Shown here piece by piece: positions 20,031-29,879 of a DNA stretch of 54,670 nt; the first letter of the stretch is position 1; every line of letters starts with the position of its first letter. The notes under the pieces are model-generated. The model was not told where the DNA came from, ran no database searches, and saw only the letters and a list, made by a program, of their open reading frames with translations. The stretch spans positions 1 to 54,670 of the forward strand of contig CAUJGS010000037.1 in the NCBI GenBank assembly GCA_963170185.1, read 5' to 3'. Source of the DNA: Bdellovibrionota bacterium. GTDB lineage: Bacteria; Bdellovibrionota; Bdellovibrionia; Bdellovibrionales; JAMPXM01. The position numbers and the translations under genes were made by a program.

Positions 20031-21887
20031 ATGTCTAGGGGTGTATCTAAAAGCTTGGGCTTGGCGCTGACACTGCTTGCGCCGATCGCGGCCGCCGGGA
20101 TGTGGCTTGCGAGCGAAAGCTCCAAAGCGGCTTACACGACCGAGATCCTGCGCGCGACACGGACAGACCCTTTGCTTCCAACCTTGAAGCCCTACGCCGT
20201 TCCCGATTTTCAATCGCTGGAAAGCCTCAACTACGACGAAGTTTGCGGACTCGATAGCAATGGGAAAACCGTCTGCTACAAGGGGCGCGAAGCGGGAACC
20301 TGGATTCCAGATACAGTCGGCAGGCTGCGCACGGCGCTGCAAAACGAAATCTTCGGCTGCGGACAAGACGAGGACGGCTGGAAGTGCTGGCGAATGGTGA
20401 CCGGCTGGTACGAGAAGTTCATCAGCGACAAGGTCATCCGAAGCTTTCTAGAAGGTTCGCTGACTCACACGCTGCGCCTCAGTCCCACTTCGATCTGCGG
20501 CCAAGATCGTAAAACTCAAGACCTGAGCTGCCTCACGCCGTCGTGGGAGGCGAAACCAAAAGTCTGGCAAAAAACAGCTTCTCGAGGACTCACAGCCATT
20601 GGCGTCCACGATAGCTATGTCTGCTGGGGCGATGGGGACCAAATTCTTTGCGAAGAAGAGTACGCACGCTGGCGCTTGCCAAAGGGCCTCGAACTTTCAA
20701 ATCTCAAAGAGATCAAACTGGGCGACACTTATCTCTGCGCGCGATCGGCAAAAGAGGCGATCTGCTGGACGACTGGAAGCGGCAGTGCCGCCCATATGCA
20801 ACCGCTATCCGCCGAAATGACCAACGCCCGACAATGGCTCACCCGCCGCGAAACACTATGCGCGGTCACGCAAGACGGTCGCTTCGTCTGCGTGGACCCG
20901 GCGACAGCAAAAGACATCGAACCGACAACTCCGGGCAATGCAATCCCACCTAGCTACGCATCGCCAAGTCCACTTTTAAAATCGGTATGGGCTTCCGATT
21001 CGCACGGCTGCGCACTTCACAACGACGGCCAAGTTCATTGCTGGAGCTGGTGGAACGGGGCAAGTTTTCGCATCGACTACAGCGAGCGAGTGGAGATGCT
21101 GTTTGGCTCGGGCTATTCGCCCTGCGGCCTCATGCAGTCCGGGCAAGCGGAATGCCGAATCACCTATATCGATGGTCGCACACTGCCCAAAGCCGGTCGC
21201 GTGCGGGTGGAGTTTGGCGGCTACAACAAATGTTATTGGAACGAAGGTGGTATCGACTGCCGAGGACGAGCCGATGCAATCGGATTTAAGTCGGTGAGAT
21301 CGGTCGCATCCTCGACGGCCGGAGAGTCGATGTGCGTCGTTGGCGTTCCACAAGATGCCCCTTATGGTTTTGAAAGCGTTCGCTGCTTCTCGTACGACAC
21401 GGCCTTACAAACTCCGCCGCAAGAACTGAGAAACCCCACGGCCGTCGCCGTTCACAAAGACAGGGCCTGCGCGATTTCAGACGATGGCCTAACCTGCTGG
21501 GGAGATGGCTTTAGCGGTGTCGCCACGCCGACAACAATCGCCGGCGCACGCAAGCTTCGTCTATCCGACTCACACGGCTGTTTGATCGATGACTTTGGGT
21601 TTGCCTGCTGGGGAGATCTCGCTGGTCTGCAACTCGAAGTACCAACCGGCCTCGAACAGCCTGGCCGCGTTGTCGACTTCGCACTGGGAAGCAGTCGCAC
21701 CTGCGCCGTCCTAGACTCAGGCGAAGTCGAATGCTGGGGCCGAGACTTTGATTCGTCAGGACCACCACCGGTATTCTCCAAAGCGACCTCCATCATTGGT
21801 CGCGGAAGTCTTTTCTGCGCGCTCGGCACGACCGACTCGGGCCCAGGCCTACATTGCTGGGGCGGCTATACAGATCTCCCCCGTTAA
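20031..21887 (+). CDS. Exported RCC1-like Cys-pair repeat protein (copy 2)
   Basis: A 618-residue paralogue of the upstream gene, with a hydrophobic export signal at about 8-26. I again count 14 Cys-pair repeats; the last four end in CWG (LTCWGDG, FACWGDL, VECWGRD, LHCWGGY). The two proteins share layout, repeat number and many repeat motifs but differ widely in sequence, so the duplication is old. A GGGGG ribosome site lies 9 bases before the ATG. The likely location is periplasmic or surface, and the function is unknown. An imperfect hairpin without a T tract lies between the copies, so they may share a transcript. Confidence 0.82.
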   Translation: MSRGVSKSLGLALTLLAPIAAAGMWLASESSKAAYTTEILRATRTDPLLPTLKPYAVPDFQSLESLNYDEVCGLDSNGKTVCYKGREAGTWIPDTVGRLRTALQNEIFGCGQDEDGWKCWRMVTGWYEKFISDKVIRSFLEGSLTHTLRLSPTSICGQDRKTQDLSCLTPSWEAKPKVWQKTASRGLTAIGVHDSYVCWGDGDQILCEEEYARWRLPKGLELSNLKEIKLGDTYLCARSAKEAICWTTGSGSAAHMQPLSAEMTNARQWLTRRETLCAVTQDGRFVCVDPATAKDIEPTTPGNAIPPSYASPSPLLKSVWASDSHGCALHNDGQVHCWSWWNGASFRIDYSERVEMLFGSGYSPCGLMQSGQAECRITYIDGRTLPKAGRVRVEFGGYNKCYWNEGGIDCRGRADAIGFKSVRSVASSTAGESMCVVGVPQDAPYGFESVRCFSYDTALQTPPQELRNPTAVAVHKDRACAISDDGLTCWGDGFSGVATPTTIAGARKLRLSDSHGCLIDDFGFACWGDLAGLQLEVPTGLEQPGRVVDFALGSSRTCAVLDSGEVECWGRDFDSSGPPPVFSKATSIIGRGSLFCALGTTDSGPGLHCWGGYTDLPR

Positions 21888-22022
21888 GACGTTTCTCGAT
21901 CTCTTTAAAACCCGACTTTGATAATTCACGGCCAAGTCCGTCAAACGCGGCCTTGCGATGAAACCGTCATTTTCATCGTCGTCTCGTTATGGTTCAGGTT
22001 TTTAAAAAATTTAAACGTTCAT

Positions 22023-22051
22023 TTGATTTTCTTAAACGAAAAACCGATATT
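22023..22051 (+). promoter_or_regulatory. Candidate promoter of the TetR-TolC-RND operon
   Basis: TTGATT and GATATT are separated by 17 bases in a markedly AT-rich stretch that also repeats TTAAACG-like words. This placement makes sense only if the TetR gene starts at 22061; the transcript would then have a very short leader. If translation starts at 21989, the stretch is coding. Confidence 0.3.
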
Positions 22052-22060
22052 TTAAAACGT

Positions 22061-22726
22061 ATGGCGAAGCTACCACCAAAAGCCTCAAGCAGCCCCTCCG
22101 ACTCACGCCAAGCGCTTCTTACAGCGGCAAGGCGGGTCTTTGCCGACCGCGGATTCGAAGGCGCAACAGTAAAAGATCTGGCCGACGAGGCCGGAGTAAA
22201 CGTCAGTCTGGTCAGCTATTACTTCGGTGGAAAAGACGGACTCTATCGCGAGTGCTTGCTCAATTTCGCCGAACAGCGTTGGCAGGCAATCGTTCGGATT
22301 TTAAAACCAGCCGAATCGCCCGAGGAATTCCGGACACGCCTTCAGCTTCTCGCGGAGGAAATCGCGGAAGTTCACGTCCATGAACCGGACCTCTGTCGCA
22401 TCGTTCATCGCGATGTCCAGAATCTGGCTCCAGCCGCTGTTGAGGTCTTTAAGGGCGGGTTTTTTAAGATTTTCGAAACCCTCGTCGCGTTCATCAAGTC
22501 AGCGGAAAAAAAAGGGATCACGCGCCATCTCAAGGACCACGAATCCACAGCCGGACTTGTGATGGGCTCGCTCATGCATCAATTGCAAGCAGAGCCACAT
22601 CGCAAGATCATAGGCCTACCCTCAATTCAAGATGCGAAATATCGAACAAGCCTTTTAGCGCAGTGGTTGGAGTTCACCTACAACGGCCTCGCAAACCACA
22701 ATCAGGGCGAGCAGGAGAAGAAATGA
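22061..22726 (+). CDS. TetR-family transcriptional regulator of the efflux operon
   Basis: About 221 residues from this ATG. The DNA-binding domain reads SRQALLTAARRVFADRGFEG, then VKDLADEAGVNVSLVSYYFGGKDGLYRE, the classic TetR helix-turn-helix. The helical C-terminal half (about 80-215) would bind a ligand and form the dimer. Its end overlaps the TolC-like gene (ATGA), so it is most likely a local repressor released by a pump substrate, as in many TetR-RND operons. An in-frame ATG at 21989 would add a 24-residue Lys/Arg-rich leader; neither start has a ribosome site, and I prefer the later one because it gives the usual short TetR N-terminus. Confidence 0.9.
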   Translation: MAKLPPKASSSPSDSRQALLTAARRVFADRGFEGATVKDLADEAGVNVSLVSYYFGGKDGLYRECLLNFAEQRWQAIVRILKPAESPEEFRTRLQLLAEEIAEVHVHEPDLCRIVHRDVQNLAPAAVEVFKGGFFKIFETLVAFIKSAEKKGITRHLKDHESTAGLVMGSLMHQLQAEPHRKIIGLPSIQDAKYRTSLLAQWLEFTYNGLANHNQGEQEKK

Positions 22727-24228
22727 AATCGCACGTAACGCCGAAAAAAGATATCTCAGCTTGGATTCTGACTGCGATCGCCCTCATCGCGATCTTCTTT
22801 GCATCCTACTCGTCATTTGCCGCAGGCGCCGCCAAAACCAGTGGCCAAACGCCAAAGACGGCCGCGGCTATCGCTTCGGCGGGTGCCGATCTCTCACTTG
22901 GTGAGTTCTTAAAACACGTGCAAGATGGCAACGAAGCCTTTATCGCGGCCGAAAAAATGCGAGCGGCGGCTCTTGATGCGGCCACCGAATCCAGCCTTGC
23001 GTTCAAACCTCAGTTCTTCGCCAACGCTTCGTTCTCTTCGGATGCCAAACCCTCGCCGTTTTTCCCCTATGACCGGGTTGAAACCACAAACCTTGGCGTC
23101 GGCATCCAAAACCAGTTTGAGTTCGGTCTGCAAACCAAGTTCACCTACGGTTTTTCGGATTTCAACTACGTCGGTATCGCTCCGAAATATTTCGAAGGCC
23201 GACCGCAATTGGAGGCTTCGCTTCCGCTTTTGAAAAACGCATTCGGCCGCGAAGCACGGTTAACGGCTTTGGCCGGAGAAAAAGGCGGCCTGGCGAAATC
23301 CGCTGCGCAGGACGCCGCCCGCCGACAAGTTTTACTCGAGGCGGAAGCGGCCTATTGGAGACTCACTCTGTCACGCGAGGCGGAGAAAATCTCAAAGGCC
23401 TCGTTAGATCGCGCGCAAGCAATGTACGACTGGACAAGTCGCCGCGTAAAGCTCTCGCTTTCCGACAAAGCCGAGGGGCTTCAGGCCACTGCGCAACTCA
23501 AAGCTCGCAAACTTGATTATCGCCTAGCACAAGACGAAACACGCACCGCTTCGCTGGCCTTCAACTCGGCTCGCGGTCGCACTGGCGATGTGGTCACAGA
23601 AAACCTCCCGAAACTGACGTCCCAACTCGTCAGCGGATGGAAATCTCCAGAGCGTCAAACCAATCGCCCAGATGTCGACCTTGCGCTCTTGCAAGCGGAA
23701 GCCGCCAAAGCAAGCGCGATGGCGAGCGCGGAACGCAGCCGTTCACAGCTCGAGCTCTTCGGCCTTTACGCGTTCAACTCCCCACAAAGAGGTAGCGAAA
23801 GCGAAGCTTTCGCCGACTCCTGGAACGGCAATCGCCCGACCTCGACCATCGGGGTTCGTCTTAATATCCCACTCGATCGCTCGACAACCGAACGCGTTCA
23901 AGCAGCCTGGGCGGCCGAAGCGTCGGCCCAACAAGCCGTCGCAAGCCGCAAAATCTTCGAACAAGAGCGCGATTGGAATGATGCGGTCGCGCGCTTTGAG
24001 CTCGCGAAAGAAAAAGTAAAACTCTATGAGGACCTTGAACTCGCTCAAAAAGAGAAACTCGACTACGAGAAGTCGCGCCAACAACGCGGACGCTCGACAG
24101 TCGCGCAAGTGATCCTTTTTGAAGGCGAGTACGACCAGACAGCTTTTGCCCGCGTGCGGGCGCTGGCTGAACTTTTAAATTTGAATGCACAATTAAAACT
24201 TTATAGCCCGTTTGAACTTGCGAATTAA
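22723..24228 (+). CDS. TolC-family outer-membrane efflux protein
   Basis: About 501 residues. A signal sequence (core about 13-30, cut near FAAG) leads a long helical protein with two related halves, as in TolC. Typical signs are QLEASLPLLKNAFGREARL in the first barrel region, long Ala/Glu/Lys-rich helices (LLEAEAAYWRL, ARKLDYRLAQDETR), GVRLNIPLDR, and the final helix with VAQVILFEGEYDQ. It forms the trimeric exit duct of tripartite pumps. AGGAG lies just before the ATG, which overlaps the TetR stop codon. The RND pump gene follows 65 bases later. Confidence 0.92.
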   Translation: MKSHVTPKKDISAWILTAIALIAIFFASYSSFAAGAAKTSGQTPKTAAAIASAGADLSLGEFLKHVQDGNEAFIAAEKMRAAALDAATESSLAFKPQFFANASFSSDAKPSPFFPYDRVETTNLGVGIQNQFEFGLQTKFTYGFSDFNYVGIAPKYFEGRPQLEASLPLLKNAFGREARLTALAGEKGGLAKSAAQDAARRQVLLEAEAAYWRLTLSREAEKISKASLDRAQAMYDWTSRRVKLSLSDKAEGLQATAQLKARKLDYRLAQDETRTASLAFNSARGRTGDVVTENLPKLTSQLVSGWKSPERQTNRPDVDLALLQAEAAKASAMASAERSRSQLELFGLYAFNSPQRGSESEAFADSWNGNRPTSTIGVRLNIPLDRSTTERVQAAWAAEASAQQAVASRKIFEQERDWNDAVARFELAKEKVKLYEDLELAQKEKLDYEKSRQQRGRSTVAQVILFEGEYDQTAFARVRALAELLNLNAQLKLYSPFELAN

Positions 24229-24293
24229 TTGCCGAGCAAACTTGCGAAGCATAGTCGCCGGCGAAGCCTAAGCGGGACATTTTAGGAGCTACG

Positions 24294-27200
24294 ATGGATC
24301 TTTCAGAACTTTCCATACGACGTCCGATCTTCCTGACGTGTATCGTGATTCTTTCACTCGTCGTCGGACTCGGCGCGATGTCACGAATGGGGGTCGATCT
24401 CTTCCCTGACATCACGTTCCCTGTGGTGACGGTTCAAACACCCTACCCTGGTGCGGGCCCCGCCGAGGTTGAAACTCTAGTTTCAAAACCTCTTGAGGAC
24501 GAACTCTCGACACTTTCCGGTATCAAACGCCTTTCCTCGCAAAACCGCGAAGGGATCTCGGTTGTTATCGCTGAATTCACGCTCGAAACCGACGTCAAAT
24601 ACGCCGAACAACAAGTCCGCGATCGCGTCGGCTCGACAAGAAGAAAACTACCGACCGATATCGACGAACCCGTGATCCGCCGTATCGATCCGGCCGATCA
24701 GCCGATCTTGATTCTCGCGGTCAATGGCGACCTGCCTCCCGGTGAACTCTACGACTTCGTCAACGAACGCGTTAAACCCCGCCTCGAACAGGTCAACCAA
24801 GTTGGTCTGGTAGAAATTCTCGGCGGCCGCAAGCGCGAGATTCAGGTTCAGCTCGATCGCGCCAAACTAAAAGACCGCGAACTCTCGGCAACCCTGATTG
24901 CAAGTCGCCTAGCTGGCGCCGGCAACGACATTCCGTCCGGAAAAAAAGCCGATGGCCAAGTGGAAACCGTGTTCCGCACTGTGGGCCAGTTCAAGTCGTT
25001 TGACGACATTCGCAACATGGTCGTGAACTTCTTCGGTAACGACGTTCCAATTAAGATCTCCGATGTCGCAAACGTTCAAGACACGCTAGTTGATGAAACC
25101 TCACGCGCTTATATCAACGGCGAAAAGTCGCTGTTTATTTACGCGTTCCGCCAGTCCGGCGCCAACACCATCAAGGTCGTCGACGGGCTTCTTGGTGCCG
25201 TCGAACGAGCCAACAAAGAGTACGCCGGCGAAAAAGGAAACCCAAAGATCACTGTCGTACGAGACGGATCGCTTTGGATTCGCGCCAATATCTTCGACGT
25301 CCAAGAGACTATTTTTATCGGGATCTTTCTAGCCGTCGTGACGGTCTTCTTCTTCCTCGCCAATGGTCGTTCAACGATTATCACTGGCTTGGCTCTCCCC
25401 AACTCGTTGATCGGCGCCTTCATCTTGATGGCCATCTCTGGGTTCACCATCAACATCATGACTCTCCTCGCGCTGTCGCTTTCCGTTGGTCTTCTGATCG
25501 ATGACGCGATCGTCGTACGAGAAAACATCTTCCGTCACATGGAGATGGGAAAATCTCCAATGCAGGCCGCCCGCGAAGGAACGGCCGAGGTGAAGCTTGC
25601 GGTTATCGGAACCACACTCGCAGTCATTGCGGTCTTCGGACCACTTGGCTTTCTTAGCGGTGTCGTCGGACAGTTCTTTAAGCAGTTTGGCCTCACCGTC
25701 TGCTATGCAATGGCGATCTCACTTTTCGACGCCCTGACAATGGCGCCAATGATGTCGGCGTACCTAGCAGGTCCCGCGCACCACAAACCTGGAACCGGCA
25801 ACTCAGTCTACGACAAGACGATTGGAAAAATGCTTGCGGGCTTCTCGAACTTTCAAGACTGGCTTGAAGTGAAGTACGAAAACTTTGTTCGCAAAGTCAT
25901 CGCCAACCCGCTTAAGTCGATCGCGGCCTCTGTCATGGTGTTCTTCGCTTGCATGGCCTTGGCGAAGTTCGTTCCTGCGACATTCCTCCCGACTCAAGAC
26001 TCCGGTGAGTTCACGGTGGGAATCGACTTGCCGCCTGGAACCAGCCTCAATTCGATGAATGAACTCGCGATGAAGGTCGATAAAACCATTCGCGAAAACA
26101 AAGAGGTTCGCATCACGGCTACTACCGTCGGCTCACGCGAAGGTGACGCCAACTACGCGGACTTCTATGTTCAGCTCGTCCCAAGTCGCCAACGCAGCAT
26201 GAACACAAGCAAGTTCAAAGAACGTCTTCGTGAGCAACTGCACCAGTACGCACATGCAAATCCGAAAGTGAAAGATTACGACGCCGTCGGTGGCGGCATG
26301 CGACCGTTCACGATGATCATTCAAGGAACGGATCAGCAGGTTCTCGAAACTCAAGGTCTCGCGGCTTTGGAAAAACTGAAATCCTACAAAGGCCTTCTCG
26401 ATACGGACATCAACTTCCGTACCGGAAAACCAGAGTTTCAAGTCGTTCCAGATCGCGCGCGCGCCCAAACACTTGGCGTTTCAACAACCGCGATCGGCTC
26501 GGAGCTTCGTGCTCAGGTCGAAGGCCTGGTGGCCGCCAAGTATCGCGAAGCCGGAATCGAATACGACATCCGCGTTCGCATGCAAGAGGATCAACGCGAC
26601 ATCAGGTCGGCCTTCAACGGTATTTATGTTCCGAACCTGAACAACTCTCTGGTGAAGCTCTCCAACGTGGCAAAGCCAGTCGACGCGACAGGGCCCTCTA
26701 GTATCACGCGCATGGACCGCATGAAGTACGTTCAGATCTCGGCCGATCTCGCTCCCGGCGTCGGTATGGCTCAGATCCTCGGTGACGTCACAAAGATCAT
26801 GAATGACGAAATCAAGCTTCCAAAGGATGTGAAGTTCTCGTTTATCGGTCAGGCCGAAAACTTCAAGGAGCTTGGCGAGTCGATGGCGTTTGCAATGGGC
26901 GCGGGCGTGATCTTCATCTTCCTCGTCCTCGCTTCACTTTATGAATCGTTCATCACGCCGTTTACGATCATGCTTGCGATGCCACTTGCGATCGCCGGAG
27001 CATTTGTCGGCCTCTTCCTTGGAAACGAGAGCATGAATCTGTTCTCGATGATCGGGATGATTATGCTGATCGGGATCGCGTGTAAAAACTCGATTCTCCT
27101 GGTCGACTATGCCAACCAGCTTGTTCAAGGGGGCATGGACCGCACCACTGCCATGGTGACAGCGGGTCGCGCCCGTTTGCGCCCGATCTTGATGACGACG

Positions 27201-27485
27201 ATGGCTCTCATCGCCGGAACGATTCCCCTGGCAATTGGTCTCAACGAGGCCTCCAAGCAGCGTACATCCATGGGCTGGGCGATTATCGGCGGTCTGATCT
27301 CATCTACCCTCCTCACACTGATCGTGATCCCTGCGGCCTATGCCTTTATTGATCGCTTCCGTGTCTGGAGTCTGGGGCAAATGAAACGCATCTTCGTTGC
27401 GGCTCCTAACGAAGGCCCCGTGGCCCACGCGAAAAACGGAGCTAGCCCAAGCGCTGGCCACGAGCCCGACATGATCTCGAAATAA
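24294..27485 (+). CDS. RND-family efflux transporter, AcrB/MdtB type
   Basis: A 1063-residue inner-membrane proton antiporter of full length with 12 predicted membrane helices and two large periplasmic loops. It begins LSIRRPIFLTCIVILSLVVGL and MGVDLFPDITFPVV, standard for the family. The proton relay is intact: Asp-Asp at 403-404 in helix 4 (LLIDDAIVVRENI) and Lys near 931 in helix 10 (KNSILLVDYANQL). AGGAG lies 5 bases before the ATG. It probably exports drugs, lipophilic compounds or lipids with the TolC-like neighbour. No membrane fusion protein gene is present in the operon, which is odd for a hydrophobe/amphiphile pump. A strong terminator follows. Confidence 0.95.
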   Translation: MDLSELSIRRPIFLTCIVILSLVVGLGAMSRMGVDLFPDITFPVVTVQTPYPGAGPAEVETLVSKPLEDELSTLSGIKRLSSQNREGISVVIAEFTLETDVKYAEQQVRDRVGSTRRKLPTDIDEPVIRRIDPADQPILILAVNGDLPPGELYDFVNERVKPRLEQVNQVGLVEILGGRKREIQVQLDRAKLKDRELSATLIASRLAGAGNDIPSGKKADGQVETVFRTVGQFKSFDDIRNMVVNFFGNDVPIKISDVANVQDTLVDETSRAYINGEKSLFIYAFRQSGANTIKVVDGLLGAVERANKEYAGEKGNPKITVVRDGSLWIRANIFDVQETIFIGIFLAVVTVFFFLANGRSTIITGLALPNSLIGAFILMAISGFTINIMTLLALSLSVGLLIDDAIVVRENIFRHMEMGKSPMQAAREGTAEVKLAVIGTTLAVIAVFGPLGFLSGVVGQFFKQFGLTVCYAMAISLFDALTMAPMMSAYLAGPAHHKPGTGNSVYDKTIGKMLAGFSNFQDWLEVKYENFVRKVIANPLKSIAASVMVFFACMALAKFVPATFLPTQDSGEFTVGIDLPPGTSLNSMNELAMKVDKTIRENKEVRITATTVGSREGDANYADFYVQLVPSRQRSMNTSKFKERLREQLHQYAHANPKVKDYDAVGGGMRPFTMIIQGTDQQVLETQGLAALEKLKSYKGLLDTDINFRTGKPEFQVVPDRARAQTLGVSTTAIGSELRAQVEGLVAAKYREAGIEYDIRVRMQEDQRDIRSAFNGIYVPNLNNSLVKLSNVAKPVDATGPSSITRMDRMKYVQISADLAPGVGMAQILGDVTKIMNDEIKLPKDVKFSFIGQAENFKELGESMAFAMGAGVIFIFLVLASLYESFITPFTIMLAMPLAIAGAFVGLFLGNESMNLFSMIGMIMLIGIACKNSILLVDYANQLVQGGMDRTTAMVTAGRARLRPILMTTMALIAGTIPLAIGLNEASKQRTSMGWAIIGGLISSTLLTLIVIPAAYAFIDRFRVWSLGQMKRIFVAAPNEGPVAHAKNGASPSAGHEPDMISK

Positions 27486-27515: not shown

Positions 27516-27547
27516 AAAGCGGGAAGATTTCCTTCCCGCTTTTCTTT
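27516..27547 (+). terminator. Rho-independent terminator of the efflux operon
   Basis: Eleven perfect base pairs (AAAGCGGGAAG with CTTCCCGCTTT), a 5-base loop and a TTTCTTTT tail, 30 bases after the RND stop codon. Confidence 0.92.
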
Positions 27548-27625
27548 TGCCACACCCCCAAGTATCAAAGAGCTGCCGTATTTTTAGGCGACGCCTTTAT
27601 CTTAAAACTTTTGGGGGACTTTCCG

Positions 27626-28930
27626 ATGTCACGCTTCACATCTCGGTTGCCGATTCACATTGCAACGTTCCTCACTCTTCTTGCGACGTCGTTTCTGAGC
27701 CTCTCGGCCCATGCGCAGGTCTATGGCCCCACATCGGAAGAACGAAAGTTCTCGCTCGACGCTCATTTCATCTCGCAATCCAGCGATCAGGCCTCATGGG
27801 AACAAGAGGCCGACACGCAGTTCAGTCACATTTTTGGCGTCATGCACTCACCGAAACTGATTCGGCAGTTCGGCCTCGACGCCGACTATGTCGGCGGCAT
27901 CGGCGCCCCACAGCTTCCCGTCGAGTACTCGCGCTTTAAATCCACCAAACAAGCCGAAGGCACCTACCTCATTAGCTATCGCGCCAAAGGAAAGATTCTA
28001 CTTCACACCGAGGTCGCCAAGGTTCTCGACAGAGAAGGCGAAATCGAACTGCCACTTCCGGTGGACCTTGAAAACTTCTACGACAAAAAGTGCACCGACT
28101 CGCACTACGACTCGTTTGAAGACTTCTGGTATTTCTACGATCCTTTCGCCAAAGGATGCGAGAAGTTCGCCAAAGCGCCTCTGGCCGACACCTTCAAGTT
28201 TCAACTCGGCGAAGCCGTGAAACGCAAACTCGACATGGATCTCCGCTTAGATCTCTTGCGTGGAGCAAACGGCAACGGCAAAACCTTCCGCATCGACGTC
28301 GTCCATGGATTTGAAAGCTCGCACACAAACCCGCGCGATGATGGCCGTATCAACTTCAATGAGTTCAATACATGGATGGGCACTCAAGGGTTTAGCCTCA
28401 CCAAAATTCAAACACATCGCGCCCGCCCGATGAACCTTTGGACGAAGACACTTACGCTTCCCGGCGGAAAAGAAATCGAAGTCGAGATTCGAAGCTTCCT
28501 CGTCGAAACTTCGATCACTGCTCGCTCGAAACTCTTCGCCGAGTATTTCAAAGAGGCCGTCGAAAATGCCGACGTCATTTTTTATGCTGGCCACTCGGGG
28601 CTTGGCGGAAACTTGGATATTCCGTCGCTCGAAGAAAAGTCCGGCGGATTCCAATTCCAAGCTAACAAACGACAGATCTTCTTTTTCGAAAGCTGCTCGA
28701 GCTACAGTTACTACCTCGCCCCTTTCCGAGCCGAAAAAACCCGCGCCCGCATCGACGTCGTCACCAATGGGCTTTCAAGCTACTTCGACACAGGCGCGGC
28801 GATGCTTCACGGGTTTCTCGAGGAGATTCTCGATGACCGTGCGACGGATAAAACCTGGGACCAAGTCTTGGGCCGCATCGAGGGCGATCTCGGTGGACGC
28901 TCTTACTTGACCAACGTCGGCGGGATCTAG
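27626..28930 (+). CDS. Secreted protein with a clan CD-like cysteine-peptidase motif pair
   Basis: About 434 residues. GGGGG lies 8 bases before the ATG; a signal peptide ends near SAHAQ. The C-terminal half holds DVIFYAGHSGLGG with His 323 and QIFFFESCSSYSYY with Cys 357. Each follows a hydrophobic strand, as in the His-Gly and Cys motifs of caspases, gingipains, clostripain and CHAT proteases (clan CD). The 34-residue gap is close to that of gingipains. The N-terminal part (about 30-290) has no match that I recognise. It is probably a periplasmic or secreted protease, but this rests on motif reading alone. It stands between a terminator and a lipoprotein gene, with no obvious operon partner. 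Confidence 0.7.
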   Translation: MSRFTSRLPIHIATFLTLLATSFLSLSAHAQVYGPTSEERKFSLDAHFISQSSDQASWEQEADTQFSHIFGVMHSPKLIRQFGLDADYVGGIGAPQLPVEYSRFKSTKQAEGTYLISYRAKGKILLHTEVAKVLDREGEIELPLPVDLENFYDKKCTDSHYDSFEDFWYFYDPFAKGCEKFAKAPLADTFKFQLGEAVKRKLDMDLRLDLLRGANGNGKTFRIDVVHGFESSHTNPRDDGRINFNEFNTWMGTQGFSLTKIQTHRARPMNLWTKTLTLPGGKEIEVEIRSFLVETSITARSKLFAEYFKEAVENADVIFYAGHSGLGGNLDIPSLEEKSGGFQFQANKRQIFFFESCSSYSYYLAPFRAEKTRARIDVVTNGLSSYFDTGAAMLHGFLEEILDDRATDKTWDQVLGRIEGDLGGRSYLTNVGGI

Positions 28931-28972
28931 ATATACCGCTTTTTCGCGCAAGCGCTTCAAAAGCTGTTGAGC

Positions 28973-28987
28973 GTCTCAAAGTGAGAC
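28973..28987. promoter_or_regulatory. Inverted repeat GTCTCA-N3-TGAGAC upstream of a lipoprotein gene
   Basis: A perfect 6-bp inverted repeat around AAG, extended by one more pair (CGTCTCA...TGAGACG). It lies about 77 bases before the GTG of the next gene and has the same form as sites at 6344 and 37692. Confidence 0.4.
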
Positions 28988-29063
28988 GGGCTTGTCTTCG
29001 GCTCTTCTCATTTGGCTCATTTCGAGAGACGATAAATGTCGGACACTCGAAAGGGTTCTACTG

Positions 29064-29879
29064 GTGGGGAAAATTTCTGAGGATACTTCTGGCCTGAAAC
29101 GAAAGCCGGGACGACTTATGGTCATGGGCCTTGTCGGTCTTGGTGTCGTAATTTTTAGCTTTCAAAACTGTGCGCCGAGGCCTCTTGAACAAGGCGAAGG
29201 CGCTTCGATCGATAACACCGGAATCTCCGGCGACTCGCAGTATCGCTTGCCGGCAAATTTCAATGAAACTCTCAACACAGGCGTCACCTGTGCAGCCACC
29301 GTGTCCGCTACCAATGTGGCCGCCGGTGGAACCTATAGCTACACCATCACACCCACTGGCACTGTTCCCACGGGTTACCGTATCTATGTTTACGGTTCTA
29401 AAAACGGAATCGCAGATGCCAGCGAAGTGATTCCCGAATACCTGACGACAATGTCCCAACAGTACACCAATCCGACACCGGGAATCATGGGCGGAACCTA
29501 TCTTCGATACTTTCAAATCCGTGACTCTCTGGGACGGGCGCTTTGCCAGACCAACACGGTGCAAACGACCCTTCAAGGTCGCATCTGCACGCTCTCAACT
29601 TCGACCACGCAAGTGCGCGTCGGCGGCGTGGTCTCGATGACCATCGGCTACGGTGCCGGCACAGCGGTTCCTGCCGGGGGAACACTGGAGTGGCAGGGCA
29701 TGAACAACAATCAAACCATCGCCGCTCTCCCCTACGACGGCGCATCAAACACCTCCTACACACGGCAGATGCAAAACATCGACGCCGGAATGGAGTATGT
29801 TCGTCGGATCGTGGTGAAAAACACCGATGGATCCGTGTATTGCCAAACGAACTACGTTCGTGTTCGCGTCTCGCCCTGA
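29064..29879 (+). CDS. Lipoprotein with an FQNC signal, beta-rich, unknown function
   Basis: About 271 residues from the GTG at 29064, chosen because GAAAGGG lies 8 bases before it; other in-frame starts are TTG 28992 and ATG 29118. The signal runs LMVMGLVGLGVVIFSFQNC, with Cys the likely lipidated residue. The mature part has two or three Ig-like or fibronectin-like beta units with the repeating layout xxGGxYSYTITP / VPxGxxxY, Thr/Ser-rich and with paired Cys (TCAATV ... LCQTN, ICTLST ... YCQTN). It is probably an outer-membrane-anchored adhesin-like or binding protein. Confidence 0.75.
   Translation: MGKISEDTSGLKRKPGRLMVMGLVGLGVVIFSFQNCAPRPLEQGEGASIDNTGISGDSQYRLPANFNETLNTGVTCAATVSATNVAAGGTYSYTITPTGTVPTGYRIYVYGSKNGIADASEVIPEYLTTMSQQYTNPTPGIMGGTYLRYFQIRDSLGRALCQTNTVQTTLQGRICTLSTSTTQVRVGGVVSMTIGYGAGTAVPAGGTLEWQGMNNNQTIAALPYDGASNTSYTRQMQNIDAGMEYVRRIVVKNTDGSVYCQTNYVRVRVSP

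Follow-up and report, generated by a model that had tools for sequence, protein, structure and literature searches.

The window, by which we mean the whole stretch of DNA that was analysed (54,670 nucleotides), carries a gene for an exported protein that we consider probably to be a two-domain cysteine peptidase of an unnamed family, with His323 and Cys357 as its predicted catalytic residues. This family is widespread in the Bdellovibrio phylum and nearly confined to it. Since an invariant His and a lone Cys occupy the positions of the active site of gingipains and caspases, the protein probably represents a novel type of secreted protease. Sequence comparisons give fair support to kinship with clan CD at the level of the clan, and no support to membership in any one of its named families. 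If this assignment is correct, roughly one in three genomes of the Bdellovibrio phylum encodes an exported cysteine peptidase-like family that was missed by the libraries searched, clan CD gains a family with an unusual His-Ser site, and probes and inhibitors could be directed at a defined target in this phylum.

The gene and the parts of its product

The reading frame at positions 27626–28930 of the forward strand is open for 434 codons from an ATG that is preceded by a G-rich stretch; an in-frame TTG at position 27611 is also a possible start. The upstream neighbour is an AcrB-type pump gene (24294–27485), and the presence of terminator-like hairpins on both sides of the gene suggests that it is probably transcribed alone. 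The features of the region are as follows.

27516..27542, +, terminator-like hairpin of 11 pairs, separating the RND pump gene from the gene under study (hairpin reading)
27626..28930, +, whole coding sequence of the exported clan CD-like protein, 434 aa (reading frame and family searches)
27626..27715, +, signal peptide, residues 1–30, AHA then Q (sequence; predicted helix 8–24)
27719..28276, +, N-terminal beta-rich domain, residues 32–217 (AlphaFold2 secondary structure)
28091..28093, +, Cys156, candidate disulfide partner of Cys178 (116/118 members)
28157..28159, +, Cys178, candidate disulfide partner of Cys156 (118/118 members)
28277..28927, +, C-terminal clan CD-like alpha/beta/alpha domain, residues 218–434 (AlphaFold2; weak C25 and C50 matches of relatives)
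28337..28339, +, Asp238, in the loop that follows strand 1 (114/118 members)
28592..28594, +, His323, proposed catalytic His, directly after strand 317–321 (118/118 members; AlphaFold2 strand)
28688..28690, +, Glu355, two residues before the Cys, at the place of the S1 residue Asp177 of PmC11 (alignment; PMC4850288)
28694..28696, +, Cys357, proposed nucleophile, directly after strand 349–355 and the only Cys of its domain (118/118 members)
28972..28988, +, weaker terminator-like hairpin of 7 pairs, 3' of the gene (hairpin reading)

The preliminary description of this region had taken the protein to be secreted, and its N-terminus agrees with this, being by sequence a Sec signal peptide in which MSRFTSRLPIHIATFLTLLATSFLSLSAHA is followed by Q after the cleavage site. 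According to a simple rule, a hydrophobic N-terminal stretch of the signal-peptide type is present in 91 of 99 family members. The protein contains 12 His and 3 Cys residues. His323 lies within ADVIFYAGHSGLGGNL and Cys357 within KRQIFFFESCSSYSY, 34 residues further on, each after a hydrophobic stretch; the two hydrophobic strands that had been proposed to end at these residues are thus borne out by the sequence and by the AlphaFold2 strands.

The next reading frame downstream (28992–29879, +) encodes a putative lipoprotein-like product with FSFQNCAPRP near its N-terminus and without a Pfam match.

Distribution of the family and gene neighbourhood

The single protein of the window had no match in Pfam, NCBIfam or the PDB sequences, and the first scan of genome contigs with it found no relative. 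A search of whole genomes revealed relatives in 48 of the 141 genomes of the window organism's order, and a profile search of the phylum found the family in 135 of 369 genomes, spread over 77 of 182 genera; the records with members include ones named Bdellovibrio, Pseudobdellovibrio, Bacteriovorax and Halobacteriovoraceae. The distribution is patchy: several complete genomes are without the family, among them many complete single-contig genomes of one genus (g11). One further member comes from a record titled Elusimicrobia (L101), where transfer or a mis-binned contig is possible. No description of the family was found in open-access titles and abstracts on Bdellovibrio with clan CD-type peptidases; the Bdellovibrio proteases BspE and BspK are reported to be serine proteases (PMC6510308, PMC5288813).

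It had been suggested that the protein could be a lead for the cleavage of prey or host proteins. As a predation enzyme, it would be released into the prey to cut such proteins there. Such a role is compatible with a secreted peptidase; the export signal speaks for it, as does the occurrence of the family in Bdellovibrio, Bacteriovorax and Halobacteriovoraceae records. However, the presence of the family in only 135 of the 369 genomes, its absence from many complete genomes of the genus mentioned above, and a surrounding region with neither a predation gene nor a conserved gene order do not fit well with it, and we consider this role unlikely. In the window's clade, only close relatives share the gene neighbourhood.

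Within the genus, the orthologue in another genome (L002:1498-4187) immediately follows an RCC1-like gene. In the window, a block of TetR, outer-membrane factor and AcrB-type pump genes (21989–27485) stands between the RCC1-like gene (20031–21887) and the gene under study, indicating that the block was either gained in the window or lost in L002.

Several smaller variations were observed within the family. One subfamily (L043–L048, L051, L054, L056, L057, L004) carries GHSRVG and GCNSYSYY motifs, and lipobox-like N-termini in several of its proteins suggest that some members may be lipoproteins. In the divergent members (L078–L108), many C-termini end in a conserved GVNGDEDN-type motif, in place of which the window's clade has LTNVGGI. 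A distant member (L006:1276-2288, genome G012) is split into two overlapping frames, possibly by a frameshift, and its second frame alone was used.

Conservation of His323 and Cys357

The alignment-based scan used patterns holding the His and Cys motifs, so that the loci fetched in this way are biased. The set of 118 non-redundant members combines these loci with whole-protein and profile hits, and for this reason the estimate of conservation rests on it; the profile favours the motif somewhat, and a full-length member without the motif would still score.

His323 and Cys357 are both retained in 118 of 118 members, as are Gln350 and Cys178, followed by Gly322 (117/118) and Cys156 (116/118). When the sequences are grouped into 70 clusters at 50% identity, the His is present in 69 of 69 and the Cys in 68 of 68 of the rows with a letter at that place. 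Homologues lacking either residue, which would have spoken against the proposed pair, were therefore not encountered in either set. Among 55 divergent C-terminal domains, four columns are fully invariant, Gly322, His323, Gln350 and Cys357; it should be noted that these domains were selected with the His and Cys aligned at these columns, and the unselected sets (118 members and 70 clusters) are accordingly the real test.

The cysteines show a regular pattern, with exactly three in the aligned region of 105 of the 118 members and a single one in the C-terminal domain of 113. One disulfide together with one free nucleophile would yield this pattern.

The His–Cys spacing has its mode at 34 residues and lies almost entirely between 29 and 43 in the 50% identity clusters. 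In gingipain R, the pair is His211–Cys244, with a spacing of 33, and the gingipain-like spacing noted earlier for the protein of the window, 34 residues, is close to this value.

In several respects the family follows clan CD: the His precedes the Cys, each ends a hydrophobic strand, both are invariant, and the Gly before the catalytic His is present in 117 of 118 members. The residue after the invariant His is Ser in 149 of 154 rows and Ala in the remaining 5, and the Gly of clan CD does not occur there. In clan CD, a Gly precedes the catalytic His, and His-Gly is usual (PMC12445089); it is not the structural definition of the clan. Because His-Ser stands in place of the usual His-Gly, we describe the protein as clan CD-like and do not claim proven membership.

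This departure from known peptidases also speaks for the alternative that the same fold and His–Cys pair serve another thiol reaction, in which envelope proteins would undergo transpeptidation, ligation or acyl transfer. What speaks for a catalytic pair leaves the type of reaction unfixed, and legumain, a member of clan CD, is credited with ligase activity as well (PMC9604545). On the other side, the named clan CD families that are weakly matched are peptidases, and the partner found in one clade matches a peptidase family. We therefore regard a reaction other than peptide bond cleavage as very unlikely and retain the peptidase reading.

Sequence links to clan CD families

Two partly overlapping sets of C-terminal domains from family members were scanned, one domain at a time, against 24,736 Pfam models. 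In the first set (41 domains), Peptidase_C25 was matched by 8 domains (best E = 9.9e-4) and Peptidase_C50 by 3 (best E = 0.022); in the second, more divergent set (55 domains), the corresponding numbers were 7 (best E = 7.6e-5) and 4 (best E = 0.013). In both sets these were the two Pfam families with the largest numbers of matching domains. Where positions are given, the C25 matches cover profile positions 184–281 of 374 and the C50 matches positions 312–386 of 395; in both cases they lie at the catalytic end of the profile and over the His–Cys region. The members are related, so that their matches are not independent.

The gingipain family C25 (PF01364), to which relatives of the protein are weakly matched, resembles it in export and in the order of Gly-His, a short spacer and Cys, and differs from it in having His-Gly where the family has His-Ser and in its N-terminal domain. 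Membership in the gingipain family itself is not supported: wherever bits are given, relatives score 12.4–15.9 bits against a cut-off of 23, and the protein of the window itself has no match. The weak matches to separase C50 (PF03568), at the catalytic end of the profile, are likewise below the cut-off, and separase is a eukaryotic cell-cycle enzyme that is otherwise unlike the family.

For the caspase/metacaspase family C14 (PF00656), there was no Pfam match (cut-off 21.4 bits), and a profile made from C14 proteins of this phylum reached 9.9 bits at best, compared with at most 3.0 bits in 1,140 shuffles. This score arises mainly from a DSCSS-like Cys loop, which parallels the DSC-S-S of the local C14 proteins; the loop alone aligns, the score is weak, and the family differs from C14 in being exported and in its N-terminal domain. 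Neither the protein of the window nor any scanned member matched the clostripain family C11 (PF03415; cut-off 25.8 bits), and no match to the C-terminal domain of PmC11 was found either. The local C25 and C11 profiles did not exceed shuffles, and profile–profile alignment with hhalign gave no significant result against the C11, C14 and C25 sets or GTPases. A family profile run against the PDB sequences returned weak matches without a sensible link, and NCBIfam gave nothing coherent for the 41 domains. CHAT peptidases, intended as a comparison set, were not found in 144 genomes, and family C80 was left out of the clan CD yardsticks, since the members known for it are listed toxins.

Predicted structure

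AlphaFold2 predicted the full protein with a pLDDT of 86.8 and a pTM of 0.85 (34 rows) and the C-terminal domain alone with a pLDDT of 85.1 and a pTM of 0.87 (41 rows). The elements of the domain are, in order, b1, a1, b2, a hairpin b3–b4, a2, b5 (followed by the His), helices, b6 (followed by the Cys), a helix, b7, helices and a last strand. The His and Cys thus stand directly beyond consecutive strands of a predicted alpha/beta/alpha domain, as in clan CD.

In PmC11 (3UWS), a C11 peptidase of solved structure, the sheet order is 4-3-2-1-5-6-7-8-9, His133 and Cys179 end b5 and b6, and the b3–b4 hairpin lies between b2 and b5 (PMC4850288). In our reading of the secondary structure, the predicted elements can be matched one-for-one with those of PmC11 up to the Cys, including the hairpin placed after strand 2 and before the His strand. 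The caspase core has the strand order 2-1-3-4, and its dyad sits on the loops that follow strands 3 and 4 (PMC4357240); the order of elements and the places of His and Cys fit the caspase/haemoglobinase core when compared at the level of secondary structure.

Foldseek searches of the PDB with both models gave a different picture, the leaders among the best 50 of 886 and the best 50 of 1,379 matches being Ras-like GTPases and atlastins, with no clan CD entry in either group of 50. In the viral library, too, the leading matches were mostly Ras-like GTPases. The GTPase matches had E-values of 1e-5, TM-scores of 0.3–0.5 for the domain and an rmsd of mostly 6–15 Å. On the proposed clan CD fold the evidence is mixed: the order of elements and the places of His and Cys, most like those of PmC11, and the weak C25 and C50 matches agree with it, whereas the Foldseek leaders do not.

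Caspase-like and Ras-like folds have a common core strand order if the antiparallel strand 2 of Ras is set aside, and by this comparison the shared order could account for the GTPase matches; the family also resembles Ras-like GTPases in having a hairpin after the first helix. Taken at face value, these top matches would suggest a Ras-like or other nucleotide-binding alpha/beta domain, not a protease, with a structural or metal-binding role for the His and Cys. However, the P-loop GxxxxGK[ST] is absent from the protein of the window and occurs in 1 of 114 domains (L050), no GTPase family appears among the listed Pfam matches of member domains, and a local GTPase profile does not exceed shuffles. 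Moreover, one invariant His and one invariant Cys are few for a metal site. A GTPase function was rejected on the absence of the P-loop and on export, and a nucleotide-binding domain in general appears to us highly improbable.

Proposed mechanism

In the peptidase reading, the N-terminal beta-rich domain, probably held by a Cys156–Cys178 disulfide, would precede the clan CD-like alpha/beta/alpha domain. In the latter domain, two successive predicted central strands lead up to His323 and Cys357; the His would activate the Cys, which would attack a peptide bond outside the cytoplasm. Glu355, two residues before the Cys, probably contributes to the choice of the P1 residue, which may be Arg or Lys. 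As it takes the place of the S1 residue Asp177 of PmC11, a basic P1 is a sensible starting assumption for the window's clade. The residue at this position is acidic in many family members, as in PmC11, and across relatives it is Asn, Asp, Gly, Glu or Ala, so that the clades probably differ in specificity.

Operon with a C11 peptidase in another clade

In a clade different from that of the window (24 tips, support 0.99), 13 of the 24 members have a separate C11 gene as a partner. It lies 3' of the family gene on the same strand and encodes a secreted C11-matching product, mostly of 460–530 residues, in which the canonical His-Gly and Asp-Ala-Cys are retained. The two frames overlap by 4 to 41 bases in many loci and are separated by 8 to 36 bases in others (one start being uncertain). 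When the phylum was searched with a partner profile, 13 genomes each had one strong match (E = 1e-40 or better), and every one of these lies immediately 3' of a family member; beyond these the search returned one short piece, from a genome whose partner runs off the contig end, and a second stretch of a gene already counted. The same search found no such partner in the window's clade or genome.

In the operon clade, the two products likely form a jointly acting or cross-activating protease pair: the family enzyme would be made with the secreted clostripain-like peptidase and probably acts with it or processes it. A broader proposal, which we put forward tentatively and hold to be possible but somewhat doubtful, is that this is a new clan CD family with a Gly-His-Ser site, characteristic of one phylum, of which one clade forms a secreted two-protease unit with a dedicated C11 peptidase, one protease activating or delivering the other in an extracytoplasmic cascade. 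If so, it would offer a genetically coupled clan CD-type pair for testing the control of one secreted protease by another.

The pairing with a C11 peptidase that keeps its canonical motifs could also be expected if the family were related to clan CD but catalytically dead and served other proteases, this partner for example, as inhibitor, chaperone or adaptor. Dead enzymes, however, usually lose active-site residues, which no family member has done, and most members are without a partner; we give this possibility very little credence and keep to an active peptidase.

The window genome has a different kind of C11 gene elsewhere. On its contig C5 (L246:1103-4481), a C11 clostripain-like gene overlaps or abuts a gene matching PF16683 (Transglutaminase elicitor). 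Similar pairs occur in L251, L252, L256 and L257, the genes upstream of C11 genes elsewhere in the phylum looking alike by eye; this is a second, separate C11 pairing.
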